NCBI GenBank assembly: GCA_016197345.1
Contig: JACPVY010000151.1
Span: 1-6,070 of the forward strand
Reading direction: 5' to 3'
Source: Burkholderiales bacterium
Lineage (GTDB): Bacteria > Pseudomonadota > Gammaproteobacteria > Burkholderiales > Burkholderiaceae_D
Length of the DNA: 6,070 bases
The notes beneath the pieces are model-generated. The model was not told the DNA's origin, did no database searches, and saw only the letters and a program-made list of their open reading frames with translations. Every line of letters starts with the position of its first letter. Position 1 is the first letter of the stretch. Positions 1-6,070 of this stretch are shown in pieces. Position numbers and translations under genes: made by a program.

Positions 1-63
1 GATGCGGATGAAGACCAAAAATACGGTCAGCAACCAGCCAAGGTCGATTTGAAACTGCATCAT
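1..63 (-). CDS. fliR: FliR, flagellar export gate protein (N-terminal 21 codons only)
   Basis: Partial gene running off the left edge of the window. The visible 21 residues begin MMQFQIDLGWLLTVFLVFIR: a short polar start followed at once by a hydrophobic segment ending in Arg, as in FliR, whose first transmembrane helix starts near the N terminus. FliR is the single-copy subunit of the FliP5-Q4-R1 export gate in the inner membrane. The identification rests mainly on position directly after fliQ, the normal order. Two tandem ATG codons are possible starts: the one at 63 overlaps the fliQ stop as ATGA, the one at 60 as TGATG. Either implies translational coupling to fliQ. No clear Shine-Dalgarno lies upstream, which fits termination-reinitiation. 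Confidence 0.8.
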   Translation of the reverse strand, partial: MMQFQIDLGWLLTVFLVFIRI

Positions 64-332
64 GTCCCGAAATAGGTGGGGATATTCGCGATCAAATTGG
101 CGGAAAAAGCGACTAAGCGCTTAAGCATCCACGGCCCGCACACCACCAACACCACCACTGCGGCAATGACTTTCGGAATAAAGGTCAGCGAAGCTTCCTG
201 CACTTGCGTCACCACCTGCACCACGCTGACCAACAAGCCGACCAGCAGCGTGACCGCCAGCAATGGCGCCGAAATCAATAAGGCATTCCACAGCACATCG
301 GCTAGCAGTTGCAGGGCAAGGTCAGCGCGCAT
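60..332 (-). CDS. fliQ: FliQ, flagellar type III export gate protein
   Basis: A 90-residue protein, the usual FliQ length. Two hydrophobic helices are visible (about residues 14-39 and 50-72), joined by a short polar loop containing TQVQEASLTFIPK, which closely matches the conserved FliQ loop (TQINE..LSFIPK in the family). GPWML after the second helix is also typical. In the family, four FliQ copies pack around the FliP/FliR core of the inner-membrane export gate and form part of the channel through which rod, hook and filament subunits leave. The start at 332 has GGAGA (343-347) ten bases upstream. The stop overlaps the fliR start. The gene sits 42 bp after a TPR gene rather than directly after fliP, which is unusual. 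Confidence 0.96.
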   Translation of the reverse strand: MRADLALQLLADVLWNALLISAPLLAVTLLVGLLVSVVQVVTQVQEASLTFIPKVIAAVVVLVVCGPWMLKRLVAFSANLIANIPTYFGT

Positions 333-374: not shown

Positions 375-1493
375 TCAATGCACATCAAAGCGCTGCACCA
401 CTTCGGCCAAATTATTCCCAAAACTAGAGGGGTGTTTGCTCATGATCCTGAACGCTAAGGCGCGGAAACGCTCGGGGTCAGCAGTAACGCCCGAGAGCAC
501 CATTTCGGCATAGCGTGCCGCCAGCCCCTGCCTATCTAGGCGCAAGGCCCGCTCAATCGCCGCTTGCGCCACTTCACGCTCGCCACGCAGCGCCGCTACG
601 ACGGCAATACCGCCATGGCTTTCGCCAAAATTGCGGTCTAGCGCCAAGGCTTGTTCAAACACCTGTCCCGCGCCAGCAATGTCCCCAATAAAAATTTTGC
701 ACCACGCCAAGGTGTGCAAGGTGCCGATGTGGGTGGGCAGATATTGCGCTGCTTTTTCCAATTGGGCGATAGCACCATGCATATCGCGTTTGAGCATGCT
801 CGCCATCCCTAAACCGGCCCAGCTCCGTCCCTCTTTCGGTTGCAGAGTCAGCACTTCATTGAATAGCTCCACCGCAATGTCTGGTGTAGCAAAACCAAGT
901 GCCAGCGTGCCACTCGTCAACAAGGCTTCGAGTGGGCGTGGGCCAAGCGCGAGCGCCGCTTCGCTCATGCGCCCTGCTTCTTCGATTTGATTCAAGTCGA
1001 GCAAGATCAAGCTCACCGCAGAGAGCACACTCGCTTCTTGCATCATGCGCGCTTGATGCGTATGGAAAATTGCCATTGCCTCCTCTAGCTGGGCGACATG
1101 GTGCATAGAGCGCAACAACGCTAACAAACCATGCGCTGGCAAGTCTGGTGCATCTTCCCATGGCAACAAGGTATCGACAGTCTCTTGATGCTTGCCTTGC
1201 GCTTGTTGCGCGATGGCTAAGCTGATGCTGAGATTGATGTTGTGGTCATCGACGCTGGCGAAAGCGGCTTCTGCTTCTGCATATTGCTGCAAGGCGAATA
1301 AGGCATGTCCACGGCGATAACGCATATAAGGATCGTCGGGAAATTGCTTCACCGCCGCTTCGGTATGCGTCAAGGCGCGCTGCCATTGCTGTGCTTCTAA
1401 GGCGAGGTCAATAACGCGCGCCAGCAATTCAAAATTGCCAGGATCTTGCGCCAAATACCCTTCCATTTTTTCTAGCTGCGCTAGGGCGTCCAT
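375..1493 (-). CDS. Tetratricopeptide-repeat protein between fliP and fliQ (372 aa)
   Basis: A 372-residue, helix-rich protein with no signal peptide or membrane segment, so probably cytoplasmic. TPR-type helix pairs are readable at about residues 20-52, 54-84, 222-254, 256-287 and 290-321; the last three show the typical pattern (small residue at position 8, Ala at 20, Pro near the end), for example GRSWAGLGMASMLKRDMHGA. The segment 85-220 looks like more degenerate repeats. The C-terminal 40 residues (ERFRALAF...) are not a clear TPR. The start at 1493 has AGGAGA (1501-1506) eight bases upstream, and the previous gene's stop TAG is part of that Shine-Dalgarno. TPR folds bind peptides and partner proteins; in type III systems some secretion chaperones use them. 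A chaperone or adaptor role in flagellar export is inferred from position only. I do not recognise a named family. Confidence 0.85.
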   Translation of the reverse strand: MDALAQLEKMEGYLAQDPGNFELLARVIDLALEAQQWQRALTHTEAAVKQFPDDPYMRYRRGHALFALQQYAEAEAAFASVDDHNINLSISLAIAQQAQGKHQETVDTLLPWEDAPDLPAHGLLALLRSMHHVAQLEEAMAIFHTHQARMMQEASVLSAVSLILLDLNQIEEAGRMSEAALALGPRPLEALLTSGTLALGFATPDIAVELFNEVLTLQPKEGRSWAGLGMASMLKRDMHGAIAQLEKAAQYLPTHIGTLHTLAWCKIFIGDIAGAGQVFEQALALDRNFGESHGGIAVVAALRGEREVAQAAIERALRLDRQGLAARYAEMVLSGVTADPERFRALAFRIMSKHPSSFGNNLAEVVQRFDVH

Positions 1494-1500
1494 AGACTTT

Positions 1501-1507
1501 TCTCCTA
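1501..1507 (-). promoter_or_regulatory. Shine-Dalgarno of the 372-aa TPR gene, overlapping the preceding stop codon
   Basis: Read on the minus strand, TAGGAGA contains both the stop codon of the upstream TPR gene (TAG) and a strong AGGAGA ribosome-binding site eight bases before ATG at 1493. This decides the start of the downstream gene and ties translation of the two TPR genes together. Confidence 0.8.
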
Positions 1508-2104
1508 GTGAGTAGTGGTGCTGGTATAAGCGGAGAGCAAGATATGCTGGCTATCGCTTTCAGTCTCGTCGACTTTGGCTTTTTCCTCAGACGCTGGGAT
1601 TTTGCCTTGCGCCCGCAAATTGTCGATTTCTTGCACAATTTTTTGCATATCGGTATTCAAGGCTGGATTGCTATCATTGCGCGCAATACCAGCTTGCAAA
1701 TTACTGGAAGCTTCCGTGAATTCGTCGCGCATCAAGTGCGTTAAACCGGCACCAAATAAGCGCAGTGGATCGTCGGCAGGCAATTCTTGCAATGGCGCGA
1801 GCACCGTAGCCGCCGTCTCAGCCACACCGCTAGAGAGCCACAGCAAGCCTAGTTGCAGACGCACAATCGCCAGCGAAGCATCCATCTCTAGCGCTTTTTG
1901 CATTTCTTCAATCGCACGGTCATACATTTTGATAGTGGCGTATTCTGCGCCAAGCAAAAAATGCGCGATGGCGCGCGCGTCCGGGCGGGAAATCGCTTCT
2001 TTCAGATAGCCGATGGCGGCGCCAGTATCGTTTTCACCGCTTGCCGCTAATGCCAAGCGCATTAACTCATCCTGATCTAACAGGGCCATAGTACTTGCAG
2101 TCAT
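1505..2104 (-). CDS. Tetratricopeptide-repeat protein downstream of fliP (199 aa)
   Basis: A 199-residue soluble protein with no signal peptide. The clearest TPR is at about residues 46-76 (AHFLLGAEYATIKMYDRAIE followed by a second amphipathic helix); weaker helix pairs lie at about 11-40, 78-106 and 115-145. The C-terminal 50 residues are charged and probably extended, with a short helix (NTDMQKIVQEIDNLRAQGK) and then a Glu/Lys/Asp and Ser/Thr-rich tail. I chose ATG 2104 because GGAAGG (2111-2116) lies six bases upstream; the longer reading frame up to 2221 would run into the end of fliP and translates the fliP strand in the wrong frame. The pair of TPR genes is probably cotranslated. No named family is recognised. 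A type III chaperone or scaffold role is a guess from the fold and the neighbours. Confidence 0.83.
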   Translation of the reverse strand: MTASTMALLDQDELMRLALAASGENDTGAAIGYLKEAISRPDARAIAHFLLGAEYATIKMYDRAIEEMQKALEMDASLAIVRLQLGLLWLSSGVAETAATVLAPLQELPADDPLRLFGAGLTHLMRDEFTEASSNLQAGIARNDSNPALNTDMQKIVQEIDNLRAQGKIPASEEKAKVDETESDSQHILLSAYTSTTTH

Positions 2105-2110
2105 GATTAA

Positions 2111-2116
2111 CCTTCC
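2111..2116 (-). promoter_or_regulatory. Shine-Dalgarno setting the start of the 199-aa TPR gene
   Basis: GGAAGG on the minus strand, six bases before ATG 2104. It supports this internal start over the longer open frame that overlaps fliP. Confidence 0.65.
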
Positions 2117-2123
2117 AAAAAAT

Positions 2124-2156
2124 AGGTGCAAAACAGGTGCTAAACAGATGCTAAGG
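2124..2156 (-). repeat. Three tandem 11-bp direct repeats in the fliP-TPR spacer
   Basis: On the plus strand three consecutive 11-mers read AGGTGCAAAAC, AGGTGCTAAAC and AGATGCTAAGG. They fill the middle of the 74-bp gap between the fliP stop and the first TPR gene. The first and second copies differ at one base and the second and third at three. The period is one DNA helical turn. The repeats could be a slippage product, a protein-binding array or an mRNA spacer; nothing here separates these options. Confidence 0.8.
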
Positions 2157-2178
2157 CGCGCACCAAGGCCGATCAACG

Positions 2179-3189
2179 CTATGAGAAGGTGCCGAGCAAG
2201 GCTCGCACAATCAAATTCCAACCATCAATCAGCACAAACATTAAAATCTTCAGCGGCAATGAAATCGAGGCAGGCGGCACCATCATCATGCCAAGCGACA
2301 TCAAGGCGCTAGAAACAATTAAATCGACCAGCAAAAACGGCAAGAAAATGACAAAGCCAATTTGAAATGCCGAGCGCAATTCCGACAGCATGAAAGCAGG
2401 AATCAATTGCAACATGCCGATATCATCCATCGTCTTCGGCTGTTCAGCTTTTGCTAATTCCACCATCAAGGCTAAATCTTGCTCACGCGTTTGCCGCACC
2501 ATGAATTCACGCATGGGCAACACCGCCTGCTGTAGCGCTTTATCAGCGACCATCGTGCCATTCATGTAAGGCTGTAGCGCCTTGGTATTGACTTCGTTAA
2601 AAGTCGGCGACATCGTGAAAAAGGTCAAAAACAAGGCAAGGCTGACAATCACGGTATTTGGCGGTGTTTCTTGCATGCCTAGCGCATGGCGTAGCATCGA
2701 TAAGACGATGATGATGCGTACAAAAGCCGTCATCGACATCAAAATCGCCGGTGCTAGGCTCAAGACCGTTAAACCAAGGAAGATTTTCAGGGCCGACGAC
2801 ATCTCGCCACTGCTCGCGCCATTGAGGCTAACTTGTACACCAGGTAAGCTAACGGCGGGGCTGGCTGGGCTAGCGGCGCTAGCCGCAAAGGCAAAGCCGG
2901 TAGCGCAGAGGCAGGCTAATAGCAGCAGGAAGGCGAATGCTGGCCATAAGCGCGTTTGGCGACTATGGGAAGGCGTATTTTTAGGGACAGCCTTGGCCGC
3001 ACCATTGGTAGCCGATGCTATTGCTGCATGCATTGGTGGGCGGGTCGCCCACCCTACGTGAGAGCGCGTCCAAGCGGCAACACGATGCGTCACGTTTTTA
3101 TAGGGTGAGCAATTTTGTTGCCCACGCATCGCTGTAGGCAAGATTGATGGGAGAGGTGCCGCCCCTACATGATTTGGATGGGCCGCCAT
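2179..3189 (-). CDS. fliP: FliP, flagellar export gate protein with an unusual N-terminal extension
   Basis: From ATG 3189 the product is 336 residues, against roughly 245-250 usual for FliP. The C-terminal part is clearly FliP: membrane helices at about 132-156, 178-193, 272-292 and 309-333, and the family hallmarks AFVRIIIVLSMLRHALG, PMREFMVRQTREQDL, FQIGFVIFLPFLLVDLI and LGMMMVPP. FliP forms the pentameric ring of the inner-membrane export gate. A signal-sequence-like hydrophobic stretch (about 82-100) ends near FAFAASAASP, normal for FliP, but about 80 residues precede it. Residues 7-52 are encoded by a palindromic repeat element (about 3034-3172). The 3189 start overlaps the fliO stop (TAATG) and has AGGAG (3198-3202) eight bases upstream. 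An alternative start is ATG 3033 (284 aa), just downstream of the hairpin with no clear Shine-Dalgarno. The gene identity is certain; the start is less so. Confidence 0.96.
   Translation of the reverse strand: MAAHPNHVGAAPLPSILPTAMRGQQNCSPYKNVTHRVAAWTRSHVGWATRPPMHAAIASATNGAAKAVPKNTPSHSRQTRLWPAFAFLLLLACLCATGFAFAASAASPASPAVSLPGVQVSLNGASSGEMSSALKIFLGLTVLSLAPAILMSMTAFVRIIIVLSMLRHALGMQETPPNTVIVSLALFLTFFTMSPTFNEVNTKALQPYMNGTMVADKALQQAVLPMREFMVRQTREQDLALMVELAKAEQPKTMDDIGMLQLIPAFMLSELRSAFQIGFVIFLPFLLVDLIVSSALMSLGMMMVPPASISLPLKILMFVLIDGWNLIVRALLGTFS
3034..3172. repeat. Palindromic repeat element inserted in frame in the 5' part of fliP
   Basis: About 140 bp unlike the surrounding coding sequence, with nested inverted repeats. 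A perfect 8-bp stem GGTGGGCG/CGCCCACC lies at 3035-3042 and 3046-3053 with a 3-base loop. CGATGCGT (3083-3090) pairs with ACGCATCG (3124-3131). Between these, GTGAGCAA (3105-3112) pairs with TTGCCCAC (3118-3125) apart from one mismatch. GTAGG (3134-3138) faces CCTAC (3164-3168). The minus-strand text GTAGGGTGGGCGACCCGCCC and its translation VGWATRPP resemble, as far as I recall, dispersed intergenic repeats often mis-annotated as proteins in proteobacteria. No transposase is present. Boundaries are approximate. It keeps the fliP frame open through all its codons. Confidence 0.7.
3035..3053. repeat. Perfect hairpin within fliP, just before the alternative ATG 3033
   Basis: GGTGGGCG - GGT - CGCCCACC: an 8-bp GC-rich stem with a 3-base loop. 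In the fliP mRNA it would sit one base before ATG 3033, so it would tend to hide that codon from ribosomes. This argues against 3033 as an efficient start. It is followed by no T-run on the minus strand, so it is not a typical terminator. Confidence 0.75.
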
Positions 3190-3776
3190 TAGCTTTGCTC
3201 CTGCCGTGCTAAGGTTGGCGACTGCCCATTTGGCCCGGCGAGGCATTGCAAGCCATGTTCGCTTTGCGCGATCAGATAGCGCCCGCCATCAAATTCCACC
3301 ACCGACAATACCGCGCGTGGCCCTAGGCGTTGGCTTTCGAGAATGCGTAATAGCGTGCCTTGAGCATGTTGTGGATTGACTAAATTGAGTTTTTTGCGCG
3401 CCCACATCACCCCGACGATGGTCACCGCAGAAATCAAAAGGACACCAACTGCACCACCACCGAGAGAAGAAGAGGCCACACCGGTGTCGTGTTTGAACGG
3501 GATCGCTGGTGGATGGGACGCAACTGGATTAGCGTTAGCGCTGGCACTGACGCTAGCGACGCTGCTGCCGCTATTACTGCTACAGCTGCTATTACTGCTA
3601 CTGCAGGCGCTACTAGCGCTATTTATTGCGGTAGCACTTTCAGCAGCATTCGCCAGCGGATGGGCTAGCAGCATCAGGGCGATCAAGCCTGTCGCCAAGC
3701 TCGCCACCACTCGCACAGCCGCACGCACCAGCACTTGCGTACGGGCGAGAGCGTAAGAACGTGTCAGCCATTGCAT
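3189..3776 (-). CDS. fliO: FliO, flagellar export gate assembly protein, with a long Ser-rich linker
   Basis: A 195-residue protein between fliN and fliP, the standard fliO position. Layout: a basic start, then a hydrophobic N-terminal segment (about 23-39) ending in a signal-peptidase-like site near ANAA-ES (43-46); a low-complexity Ser/Ala/Asn linker (about 45-105); one membrane helix (about 106-125); a basic stop (ARKKL); and a small cytoplasmic domain with LGPRAVLSVVEFDGGRYLIA, which matches the FliO pattern (basic residues, VVLVEV, then a self-binding strand). In the family FliO aids stable FliP ring assembly and is not part of the mature gate. Typical FliO proteins are about 120-150 residues, so the linker accounts for the extra length. 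Both ends overlap neighbours as TAATG. No Shine-Dalgarno is visible at 3776, so translation probably depends on fliN. Confidence 0.86.
   Translation of the reverse strand: MQWLTRSYALARTQVLVRAAVRVVASLATGLIALMLLAHPLANAAESATAINSASSACSSSNSSCSSNSGSSVASVSASANANPVASHPPAIPFKHDTGVASSSLGGGAVGVLLISAVTIVGVMWARKKLNLVNPQHAQGTLLRILESQRLGPRAVLSVVEFDGGRYLIAQSEHGLQCLAGPNGQSPTLARQEQS
3198..3202 (-). promoter_or_regulatory. Shine-Dalgarno supporting the upstream fliP start at 3189
   Basis: AGGAG on the minus strand, eight bases before ATG 3189 and inside the end of fliO. It supports the start that places the repeat-derived segment inside the FliP protein. Confidence 0.7.
3570..3601 (-). repeat. Direct 14-bp repeat encoding the Ser-rich part of FliO
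   Basis: The plus-strand 14-mer GCTATTACTGCTAC occurs at 3570-3583 and again at 3588-3601, an 18-base period that keeps the frame. On the coding strand it gives an SSNSSCSSNSGSS segment. It lies in a wider run of GCT/AGC-type triplets and fits expansion by slippage in an unconstrained linker. Confidence 0.75.
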
Positions 3777-4126
3777 TAGGATTTACTCGACTGCGCAATC
3801 TCAGTGATGCGCACACCAAAATGTTCATCGACGGCGACTAACTGACCACGTGCTACGACATTGCCATTCAATACCAGATCAACCGGGCTATCGACTGTTC
3901 TATCCACTTTCAGCACAGCCGCTTCCTGCAATTGCATCAATTCGCCGAGCGAAGTCTGGGCCGAGCCTAGCACCACCGACAAATTGACTTTCACGCCGTC
4001 CAGCAATGCCGTATTGCCACCTAACAATGCTGGGCCACTGGTTTTTTGTGGCTGCAATTCAGGCAATCCAATCAATTGGGCTTGCACCTGATTTTCTGCG
4101 CTCTCGTTATCCAATGTCGAAGTCAT
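3776..4126 (-). CDS. fliN: FliN, flagellar C-ring protein
   Basis: A 116-residue protein with one SpoA (surface presentation of antigens) domain at about residues 41-110. The diagnostic pattern is LLDGVKVNLSVVLGSAQTSL, then GELMQLQEAAVLKVDRTVDS, then PVDLVLNGNVVARGQLVAVD and EHFGVRITEI; the VNG..VARGEVV..N..FGIRIT signature of FliN is well kept. The first 40 residues are polar and probably flexible, as is common. In the family FliN forms the lower C-ring, binds FliH to deliver export substrates, and with FliM sets motor rotation. ATG 4126 has AGGAA (4134-4138) seven bases upstream. The stop overlaps fliO. It is separated from the FliM-like gene by an AT-rich 87-bp spacer. Confidence 0.95.
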   Translation of the reverse strand: MTSTLDNESAENQVQAQLIGLPELQPQKTSGPALLGGNTALLDGVKVNLSVVLGSAQTSLGELMQLQEAAVLKVDRTVDSPVDLVLNGNVVARGQLVAVDEHFGVRITEIAQSSKS

Positions 4127-4213: not shown

Positions 4214-5032
4214 TTACTTTGTAGCGACTAACTCAATTGCCACCGCATCCTGCATTTTACCAAGATAGGCACGGCAGAAGTCTGTCCCATTCTTCGCGCT
4301 TGGCAGCTTTACGCTAACAGGTTGCTCTAGCGCCGTCTTCAGTTTGATGACATCGCCCACACCGACCGTCAACAAACTTCCTAACGGCACATCAGCGCGG
4401 CCGATTTCCACCTCCAATTGCAAAGGTGTGTCACGTAATAGATGCAGCAAGTTGACTTTACCCAATGCAGGCAAGCTACCTGTCCCACTTTTAGCCGGCA
4501 CCACGCCCCGCACGGCCGCATCATTGAGCAAGACATCACAGCTTTGATTGCCTATGCTGATCTGCAATAAGATCGCCCCGGAACCCGTTTTCGCCTCAAG
4601 CGTTGGCTGGCTAATTTGCAAATCGCGCAATGCCGATGGTGGTAACAAGACCAGTTTCAATGCCGCTAGCAGCGCATCAAACGCTTGCTGCGCACCGATA
4701 GGCGCTAAGCGTGCGCGCTGCCCCGCTGCGTTGCCATGATCCGGTGGAAACATCGCCGTTTGTATTTCTTGCACTAGCGCACTTTGCCAACCAAAAAAGA
4801 TGCCACGTTCGCCATCCACCCAGCGCTGACGCCATGCAGACGCTTTCACATCCGTAAAACGGGTGCTGCGTAGCGCTACATCTTGCCCCAGCCCCCATTG
4901 CGCCGCCCATTGCTGCACAACTGGCGTTACCTGCGCCGTCAGCGCATCAAGCGTCGTTTGCGACAGCAACCGGAAGGGACGCACCTGCGGCGCCGCTTGG
5001 CTCGCCGCAGATTTGTCAGACTGGGCCGCCAT
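4214..5032 (-). CDS. Divergent FliM-like C-ring protein (SpoA domain, 272 aa)
   Basis: A 272-residue protein directly before fliN, where fliM normally lies. The C-terminal part (about 191-270) is a SpoA domain: DTPLQLEVEIGRADVPLGSL then LTVGVGDVIKL match the C-terminal domain of FliM/SctQ proteins. The N-terminal 190 residues (RPFRLLSQTTLDAL..., Trp-rich at 42-82) do not show the FliM start motif with an EIDALL-like core that binds CheY, and I could not see the GG.G motif of the middle domain. Usual FliM is about 320-335 residues. It may therefore be a second-system FliM or a type III SctQ-like protein. I chose ATG 5032, which overlaps the hook-gene stop as TGATG and has GAAAGG (5042-5047) nine bases upstream; a TTG one codon earlier is possible. 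Likely role: cytoplasmic ring and export docking, with FliN. Confidence 0.8.
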   Translation of the reverse strand: MAAQSDKSAASQAAPQVRPFRLLSQTTLDALTAQVTPVVQQWAAQWGLGQDVALRSTRFTDVKASAWRQRWVDGERGIFFGWQSALVQEIQTAMFPPDHGNAAGQRARLAPIGAQQAFDALLAALKLVLLPPSALRDLQISQPTLEAKTGSGAILLQISIGNQSCDVLLNDAAVRGVVPAKSGTGSLPALGKVNLLHLLRDTPLQLEVEIGRADVPLGSLLTVGVGDVIKLKTALEQPVSVKLPSAKNGTDFCRAYLGKMQDAVAIELVATK

Positions 5033-6070
5033 CAACGATGGCCTTTCATATCAAATAGCTCTTGAATCATGTCGTTGGCGGTACTGATCACATGCGACGA
5101 CGCTTGATAACCGCGTTGCATCAAAATCAAATTACCGAATTCTTCGGCGAGATCGACGTTAGAGCCTTCGCGATGGCCGGCCTTCAAAGTGCCAAAGGTA
5201 GGGTCACCCGCATGGGCGTATTCGACCGCACGTCCAGTTTTCAGAGAATAATTACCGCCATCAGCCTGTTCCAAATCGGTGACAGTGGCGAAATTGGCGA
5301 GCGCTAGCTGCGGACCATTTTGTGTCTCGCCATTTGAATACTTAAAGACCACCACGCCCTTCTCATCAATCGACTCGCTAGCAAGCTTGCCAGGTTCCGC
5401 GCCATCTTGCGTTGCCTTCAAGCTAGAAGTCGCCAAACCTGCCGTCAATCCAGTGGATAAATCAACTTTCATCTTGATTGGCGAACCGCCAGCTGGCGGG
5501 GTATACACCAAATTAATTGAAGGTGGGCTGGCAATGGTGTTATTGAAGTTAATAACGAACGAGGTTTGATCAAACGAACCGCCCGCATTGCCATCTGAAG
5601 GACGCAAAGTGAATTCTTTGGCTGCACTTTGTACAAAATCAAACGTCAGCGAATACTTCTTCCCATTCGCATCAAAAACATCAAGCGCTGGTGGGTCTTG
5701 TGGGACACTGGGGTTGGGCACCGTAGCCGGCATATTCAATTGCCCACTAATTGTCACATTCGCGGTTGCTTTGGCCTTGACCACGGCCGCGTTAGAAAGG
5801 GAAATGTCAGCCAAACGGCCATTTTGCAACATCTGCACGCGTTGGTCAGAGCTATTGACCAAAAATTTCTCTTCATTGAAATGAAAGCTCCCGGCGCGGG
5901 TATAAAACAAATTGCCATCTTTTTTGACGACAAAAAAGCCATCCCCCTTAATTGCAACATCAAGCGGATTGCCCGTGGTTTGGTCCAAGCCTTCTTTGAA
6001 ATTAATCATCGAACCCAAGGTTTCTAAACCGCCACCCAAACGATTAGAGGTGCCATCAAACACGGTAGGC
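5032..6070 (-). CDS. flgE: Flagellar hook protein FlgE type (partial, N terminus outside window)
   Basis: The open frame continues through the right edge; 346 residues are visible and roughly the first 40-50 are missing. Order of regions, numbered from codon 6063: the end of the N-terminal rod/hook domain and the conserved NPLDVAIKGDGFFVV (32-46) with FYTRAGSF (53-60); a FlaE-like hook domain (about 95-260) with DANGKKYSLTFDFV (131-144); and the C-terminal rod/hook helix GSNVDLAEEFGNLILMQRGY (300-319) followed by ISTANDMIQELFDM. The extra middle domain and the implied total near 390 residues favour FlgE over the shorter FlgF or FlgG. FlgE subunits pass through the export gate and build the universal joint outside the cell. 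The gene is fused into the C-ring/export operon rather than sitting with flgBCDFGH, which is unusual. The stop overlaps the next start. Confidence 0.87.
   Translation of the reverse strand, partial: PTVFDGTSNRLGGGLETLGSMINFKEGLDQTTGNPLDVAIKGDGFFVVKKDGNLFYTRAGSFHFNEEKFLVNSSDQRVQMLQNGRLADISLSNAAVVKAKATANVTISGQLNMPATVPNPSVPQDPPALDVFDANGKKYSLTFDFVQSAAKEFTLRPSDGNAGGSFDQTSFVINFNNTIASPPSINLVYTPPAGGSPIKMKVDLSTGLTAGLATSSLKATQDGAEPGKLASESIDEKGVVVFKYSNGETQNGPQLALANFATVTDLEQADGGNYSLKTGRAVEYAHAGDPTFGTLKAGHREGSNVDLAEEFGNLILMQRGYQASSHVISTANDMIQELFDMKGHR

Follow-up and report, generated by a model that had tools for sequence, protein, structure and literature searches.

The injectisome is a non-rotary export machine that arose from the flagellum, carries a SPOA protein in place of a full FliM and is served by chaperones built of tetratricopeptide repeats (TPR). 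Abby and Rocha (2012, PMC3459982) describe it as an exaptation of the flagellum, and TPR chaperones are reported to dock on the FlhA-family gate (PMC9163089; for these and the other papers cited here by accession, our statements refer to the excerpts used). Here we analyze a stretch of 6,070 nucleotides from a Burkholderiales bacterium (contig JACPVY010000151.1 of assembly GCA_016197345.1; hereafter the window), in which two TPR genes, TPR-S and TPR-L, stand between the export-gate genes fliP and fliQ. The window is the entire contig C49 of this genome, which is G000 in our set (675 contigs, 68% complete). We propose, at a probability of about 0.72, that it belongs to a second flagellum-derived cluster encoding a non-rotary secretion system for the export of giant RHS proteins, in which the TPR pair chaperones this cargo.

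A flagellum-type export machine without a flagellum has been described in Lysobacter. In Lysobacter enzymogenes, secretion of a test flagellin depends on FlhB and FliI (PMC7277350), and PMC9927559 lists fliC, fliD, flgK, flgL, flgB, fliE, fliG, fliM, motA and motB as genes that all the Lysobacter compared have lost. This flagellar type III secretion system (FT3SS) resembles the cluster described here in having flagellum-type export genes without fliG, fliM, motAB, fliC, fliD, flgK and flgL; it differs from our reading of the cluster in that it is treated as a leftover of gene loss and linked to twitching, and the excerpts describe no RHS cargo. The word 'tetratricopeptide' occurs 0 times in PMC9927559. 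Because two Lysobacter loci in our data (L056 and L096) carry TPR-S, TPR-L and an FlhA of the cluster clade, the published FT3SS of L. enzymogenes OH11 is probably a member of the same family, as judged from these other Lysobacter loci.

Other described systems share part of this picture. The cluster resembles the injectisome in being non-rotary, as we propose, in having a SPOA protein and not a full FliM, and in its TPR proteins, whereas its FliP stands apart from four injectisome sequences and scores under the SctR cut-off, and it has kept rod, hook and L/P-ring genes. The intermediate type III secretion system of Myxococcales is likewise conserved without motility parts and was earlier annotated as a relic, but it branches at the base of the injectisomes, whereas the cluster keeps flagellar outer parts and groups with flagellar sequences (PMC3459982). 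On the cargo side, RHS polymorphic toxins combine RHS repeats with variable, toxin-like C-terminal domains, a combination that some of the giants considered here also appear to show; the excerpts of PMC3482391 do not mention RHS proteins leaving by a flagellum-type system, and in the three giants scanned the first ~36 residues lack a Pfam match. In the same paper, Zhang et al. (2012) raise the question of whether the flagellar system might deliver an RNase whose gene lies beside firmicute flagellar operons. Among the titles and abstract openings listed by our searches of the open-access literature, none describes RHS export by a flagellum-type system without FliG.

The initial annotation of the window described an otherwise standard export-gate operon in which two TPR genes with tight spacing and strong ribosome-binding sites split fliP from fliQ. 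The split itself is confirmed by the open reading frames and by the TPR, fliP and fliQ profiles, and the genes on which our argument turns are the following:

1505 to 2104, minus strand: TPR-S, 199 aa (open reading frame; TPR_2 E 1.1e-7; homologues)
375 to 1493, minus strand: TPR-L, 372 aa (open reading frame; TPR_2 E 6.1e-16; homologues)
2179 to 3189, minus strand: fliP of the second system (TIGR01103, 266.6 bits against a cut-off of 217.45; tree)
60 to 332, minus strand: fliQ (TIGR01402, 91.0 bits against a cut-off of 88.9)
4214 to 5035, minus strand: FliM-like gene (FliMN_C, the C-terminal SPOA domain, as sole match, at residues 199-269)

The gaps measure 74 bp between fliP and TPR-S, 11 bp between TPR-S and TPR-L, and 42 bp between TPR-L and fliQ, and the ribosome-binding sites can be read from the sequence as purine-rich, Shine-Dalgarno-like stretches upstream of the TPR-S, TPR-L and fliQ starts. 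Another contig of G000 carries a further fliP, there in the usual fliP-fliQ-fliR order (L001), and the window therefore represents a second system.

To place the window among its relatives, genome contigs were scanned with the single TPR-L sequence, which gave no matches, and with an alignment of 22 TPR-L relatives, which gave 109 relatives; the best 80 of these were kept and correspond to 78 distinct loci, fetched with 10-kb flanks and labelled by comparison with the flagellar proteins of E. coli and with the proteins encoded in the window. Flagellum-type genes are present in 71 of the 78 loci, and because relatives are many and so many of their loci hold such genes, the arrangement of TPR-L and TPR-S is not a product of chance. 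Combined with G018, a genome in which the cluster lies on a 6.2-Mb contig, the loci hold fliE, fliF, fliH, fliI, flgD, flgE, the FliM-like gene, fliN, flgF/G, flgA, flgH, flgI, flgB and flgC, together with fliO, fliP, a FliA-like sigma gene, TPR-S, TPR-L, fliQ, fliR, flhB and flhA; the order of the blocks differs. Genes for the export gate, the ATPase, the rod, the L/P ring and the hook are all represented. Individual genes were recognized in as few as 17/78 loci (fliO) and as many as 40/78 (fliP, fliQ, fliR, flhB), the sigma gene in 38/78 and the hook-type gene in 37/78, low figures that arise partly because the flanks end at 10 kb. In G018 the genes from flgF to flhA form one run, in which fliF is directly followed by fliH, and a ChapFlgA gene is present.

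The TPR genes keep company with this machine without keeping one place in it. When the three nearest flagellar genes are considered, fliQ is at most 1 kb downstream of TPR-L in 38/78 loci, and fliP or the fliA sigma gene lies within 1 kb of it in 32/78; TPR-S was recognized within 2 kb of TPR-L in 44/78. The expectation that the homologues always sit between fliP and fliQ did not hold: an upstream fliP and a downstream fliQ were both recognized in 8/78 loci, 7 of these 8 with the sigma gene between them as well, and in a few genomes the pair lies beside a giant RHS gene rather than gate genes. Since the fliP/fliQ neighborhood varies and flagellar genes are found in 71/78 loci, the TPR genes are tied to the machine, not to one position. 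As for the expected co-occurrence with the divergent FliM, that gene was recognized within the fetched flanks in 28/78 loci. The FliA-like sigma gene, which often directly follows fliP in relatives, is missing from the corresponding place in the window (2104-2179). G018 carries a 133-aa gene between TPR-S and TPR-L (L105, 15623-16024), which has no Pfam or NCBIfam match and is lacking in the window, and gaps of ~400-480 bp separate the two TPR genes in L024, L030, L035, L040 and L061.

The machine encoded by these loci is not a standard flagellum. No fliG, motA, fliC, fliD, flgL or fliL was found in any of the 78 loci, even at E<=0.1, and no flagellin or stator gene (E<=1e-3) in the 60 kb around the G018 cluster. 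The FliF-to-FliI spacing is 886-1,360 bp in the eight loci that show both genes, against 1,667 bp in E. coli, where fliG lies there together with fliH. Genome-wide counts, which reach beyond the flanks, agree: in 20 genomes, 9 of them cluster-bearing, the numbers of FliG equal those of canonical FliP alone and leave none for the cluster. G018 has three FliP and two FliG, and both FliG lie close to FliP copies other than that of the cluster, one to each; its third system, a divergent flagellum-type one with its own FliG (G018:C1:536818-546503), is separate from both the canonical flagellum and the cluster. The middle, FliG-binding domain of FliM (PF02154) gave no match in the window's FliM-like protein or anywhere in G000; it gave one match each in 18/20 genomes and none in G000 and G032. 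Its absence alone is not telling, because G018's other divergent flagellum has none either. The phrase 'otherwise standard' therefore has to be given up in view of a FliM-like protein reduced to its SPOA domain and of the missing fliG, and 'flagellar type' fits poorly a cluster that also has no flagellin or motA.

These gene contents bear on whether the cluster could be a second, ordinary flagellum of the lateral type, with the TPR genes as two extra assembly factors and with rotor and filament parts shared with the main flagellum. Such a flagellum would account for the hook, rod, L/P-ring and export genes, it could in principle share the canonical FliG that is kept in all nine cluster genomes counted, and in a few cases chemotaxis genes are indeed close by (tar, cheY, cheA, cheW, cheR and cheB in L093; cheA, cheW, cheR and tar in G044). 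A FliM-like protein without the middle domain, as in the window, would be out of place in it, as would loci without flagellin, cap or motA genes, and two Lysobacter loci carry the clade FlhA in a genus described as lacking fliG, motAB and fliC (PMC9927559). We regard a lateral flagellum as improbable.

To determine where the export gate comes from, we reconstructed trees of FliP and FlhA. In a tree of 65 FliP sequences, including 14 canonical copies (that of E. coli among them) and four injectisome sequences as root, with 2 of the 40 locus FliPs left out, all 47/47 cluster FliP, the window's included, fall in a single clade [ultrafast bootstrap (UFBoot) 99], and none of the 14 canonical or four injectisome sequences falls inside it. 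FlhA, from which the fragmentary copy of G000 was left out, gives the same picture (65 sequences; 47/47 cluster FlhA in one clade, support 0.907), with Lysobacter, Stenotrophomonas, Dyella, Rhodanobacter, Kangiella and Teredinibacter among the members. Judging from these two clades, the cluster copies share one origin. The gate is of flagellum type, in that the window's FliP and FliQ score over their NCBIfam cut-offs and FliR, FlhB and FlhA are found in relatives; against the SctR/YscR model TIGR01102, the window's FliP scores 180.2 bits, under the cut-off of 208.6, and it passes the broader subfamily model NF009438 (192.4 against 179).

The cluster spans Burkholderiales, Lysobacterales and other Gammaproteobacteria, and this distribution speaks to a further possibility, namely that it is what is left of a flagellum since lost and persists by chance or because it has some regulatory side role, the view proposed for Lysobacter. 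The missing rotor and filament genes would suit a remnant, and gene loss is the published interpretation for Lysobacter (PMC9927559, PMC7277350). One clade extending over these groups, its frames open and its gene set recurring, is hard to square with decay, all nine cluster genomes also keep a canonical FliG, and export is functional in L. enzymogenes (PMC7277350); we consider a remnant very improbable indeed. We lean instead towards a second conversion of a flagellum into a secretion system, independent of that which led to the injectisome, in which the entire hook-basal body would have been kept, rotor, stator and filament dropped, and the TPR pair added for RHS export.

The candidate cargo is suggested by a family of giant RHS-repeat proteins encoded near the cluster, which begin with 'MVAIVSGN-LGL', reach open frames of 8,020 codons and appear to have no Sec signal, as read from the sequence rather than from a predictor. 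Their N-terminus was seen in 23/78 loci, and the first ~36 residues have no Pfam match in the three giants scanned, two of which are cut at the locus edge. We built a profile of the first 100 residues (A3; 20 sequences, two rows from G018) and compared its occurrence with that of TPR-L (strong match, E 2.5e-56 or better) in 200 genomes drawn from the order, G000 included. A3 matches occur in 7/200 genomes, namely 6/8 with a strong TPR-L match and 1/192 without [Fisher p 2.4e-9; without G018, 5/7 genomes, p 5.1e-8; these values ignore shared ancestry, G055 and G095 being one genus, and at most 9 TPR candidates were scored per genome, so that a cluster genome may have gone unnoticed among the negatives]. 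All eight genomes with a strong TPR-L match have a second FliP. The single match without one is in G055, and because the second FliP of that genome groups within the cluster clade, nine cluster genomes are counted, G055 having been classed as cluster-bearing only after its N-terminus was matched. A weak TPR match in G202 (E 1.6e-26, in a 1,222-aa frame) was attributed to a generic TPR protein and rejected, since G202 has a single FliP; if it is counted as TPR-L-bearing, the comparison becomes 6/9 versus 1/191 (p 7.0e-9).

RHS repeats as such are far more widespread than this N-terminus. They occur (PF05593) in 76/200 genomes, that is, in all nine cluster genomes and 67 others, and since the first scan had scored at most 24 candidates per genome, the 67 were searched again with every candidate scored. 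The A3 N-terminus was found in 0/67 of these cluster-negative genomes, with a profile that does give matches in both the 200-genome search and one of 35 further genomes. With G220 set aside, where the match covers residues 25-99 only of a 241-aa frame, the contrast is 6/9 versus 0/67 (p 3.8e-7). The 35 further genomes are those whose 36 TPR-L loci showed no RHS gene in the flanks; 28 of them carry the A3 N-terminus elsewhere in the genome, the best matches starting from residue 1. In the sets searched, the shared RHS N-terminus is all but confined to cluster genomes. G000 itself has two genes with this N-terminus on other contigs (L117, G000:C146, and L118, G000:C298), both interrupted in the assembly by a stop or frame change. 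A 14,056-codon RHS open frame lies at about 115640-120052 of G052:C2, in a genome without a TPR-L match or the shared N-terminus.

The giants are also neighbors of the TPR genes. An RHS giant lies within the 10-kb flanks of TPR-L in 42/78 loci, a count that stands without a background rate for arbitrary genes and that comes from protein searches with eight RHS queries from the same loci, 8 of the 42 being the queries themselves; these searches replaced a regular expression for YD repeats, which had under-counted (27/78 loci). Seven loci show no recognized flagellar gene, and in 5/7 of them the giant is present. In G095, TPR-S, TPR-L, a gene of 177 aa and the giant follow one another on one strand; in L028 the giant starts 176 bases after TPR-L; and in L048, L083, L097 and G220 the giant and the TPR genes are divergent neighbors. 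To remain beside either the gate or the giant gene, as this TPR pair does, is what would be expected of a cargo chaperone.

RHS repeats dominate the giants: two that are truncated by the edge of their locus have 27 and 15 scored stretches, and one complete G018 giant has 24. We scanned 15 C-terminal ends, comprising 13 fetched ends from the longer frames and those of two G018 giants, with two more fetched ends that ran off their contigs left out. One ends in an N-acetylmuramidase (Muramidase, E 1.8e-61), another has Tox-HNH-HHH and a third Ntox46, and one DUF4214 and one LysM were found besides RHS repeats; 10/15 ends had no domain match, and in 12/15 no toxin or hydrolase domain was named. 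In this the giants resemble polymorphic toxins, and by analogy with such toxins an action on neighboring bacteria is predicted as likely.

The same data address whether the cluster might build a hook-like appendage, or export its own hook only, while the RHS giants share its hosts and leave the cell by another route and the TPR proteins serve as scaffold or assembly factors. A hook-type gene is indeed found in 37/78 loci, both TPR proteins best match generic TPR scaffolds, and that the RHS proteins leave through the cluster is something that we infer. An N-terminus nearly exclusive to cluster genomes would be left unexplained, as would an RHS gene beside the TPR genes in 5/7 loci showing no flagellar gene, and we think such an appendage unlikely.

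Both TPR proteins have many relatives, at 41-55% identity for TPR-L (119 others listed of 303 matches, the query included) and at 46-68% for TPR-S (119 others listed out of 147). The model of TPR-L is a TPR superhelix with 22 predicted helices [predicted local distance difference test (pLDDT) 95.6, predicted template modelling score (pTM) 0.87]. The TPR-S model (mean pLDDT 84.4) has a TPR domain at about residues 11-165 followed first by a linker that varies and then by a C-terminal tail that is conserved (HILLSAYTxxTxH; window 1505-1543), residues 174-199 being modelled at pLDDT <50; the tail is a candidate docking peptide. In fold searches the best PDB matches of both models are generic TPR superhelices or scaffolds, which therefore do not help in choosing a function. 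Against the SycD/LcrH family of class II chaperones, TPR-L scores 37.1 bits, under the cut-off of 104.8, and no match to that profile is listed for TPR-S. A TPR fold is predicted for both, and RHS genes, the presumed cargo genes, adjoin the TPR genes in several genomes. The initial annotation had suggested an extra chaperone or platform component specific to this flagellar type; the first part fares well, in that the TPR genes are conserved neighbors of the machine and a chaperone or adaptor is the best reading of the pair, while the machine is not simply of a flagellar type.

Secretion of RHS giants by the cluster would then proceed as follows. The N-terminus of the giant, about its first 36 residues, would be the export signal; TPR-L and TPR-S would bind it and dock it on FlhA/FliPQR; and the unfolded cargo would exit through rod, L/P ring and hook. 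Outside, the variable C-terminal domains (muramidase, nuclease-like) may act on neighboring cells or on cell walls, and expression would be controlled by the FliA-like sigma factor. If this is true, then the flagellar export machine has a third lifestyle besides propeller and injectisome, and a class of giant RHS proteins gains both an export route and an export signal. It would also explain why flagellar genes are kept in 'non-flagellated' Lysobacter, and it would provide a living comparison for the origin of secretion systems from flagella.

Several observations weigh against this proposal, in addition to the limits attached above to the neighborhood count, the Fisher values, the class of G055, the status of the negatives and the PF02154 comparison with G018's other divergent flagellum. 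The export of the giants is what we infer from gene association, and for type III export a cargo reaching 8,020 residues would be an extreme case. No RHS gene lies in the flanks of 36/78 loci, A3 finds no match in 7 of the 35 further genomes with TPR-L, G048 and G092 have TPR-L without the N-terminus, and the match in G220 is partial. The 78 loci also hold five weak FlgK matches (best E 2e-6), which may be other axial proteins, together with one match to motB (E 0.07) and one to fliM (E 0.08), and the chemotaxis genes in L093 and G044 could suit a motility role. In L. enzymogenes, twitching is intact in fliP and fliQ deletions and not in flhA, flhB, fliI and fliR deletions, and the excerpts report no operon for its export genes, which does not fit the cluster (PMC7277350); fliE was recognized in both of our Lysobacter loci, though PMC9927559 counts it, with flgB, as lost.

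The order of genes in the window, all on the minus strand, is a cut hook-type gene, the FliM-like gene, fliN, fliO, fliP, TPR-S, TPR-L, fliQ and the probable start of fliR, and the genes not given above are these:

5032 to 6069, minus strand: FlgE-type hook protein, 5' end cut (TIGR03506, 187.3 bits against a cut-off of 70.25; under the FlgE equivalog cut-offs)
3776 to 4126, minus strand: fliN-like gene (FliMN_C, E 4.7e-21; TIGR02480, 79.7 bits, just under the cut-off of 84.05)
3189 to 3776, minus strand: fliO-like gene (PF04347, 25.7 bits, cut-off 22; NCBIfam, 38.2 bits, under the cut-off of 55.25)
1 to 60, minus strand: likely fliR start, cut by the window end (TGATG overlap with fliQ; fliR follows fliQ in relatives)

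The fliR piece is too short for any profile match. The open frame of fliP extends to 3246, and its likely start, read from the sequence, is at 3189, overlapping the stop of fliO. The window's fliP has an unusual N-terminal extension, within which a palindromic repeat (GGTGGGCG...CGCCCACC) occupies window 3025-3131; the core of this palindrome is found at 13 further places in G000, and it is thus an interspersed repeat that is read in frame within the gene.

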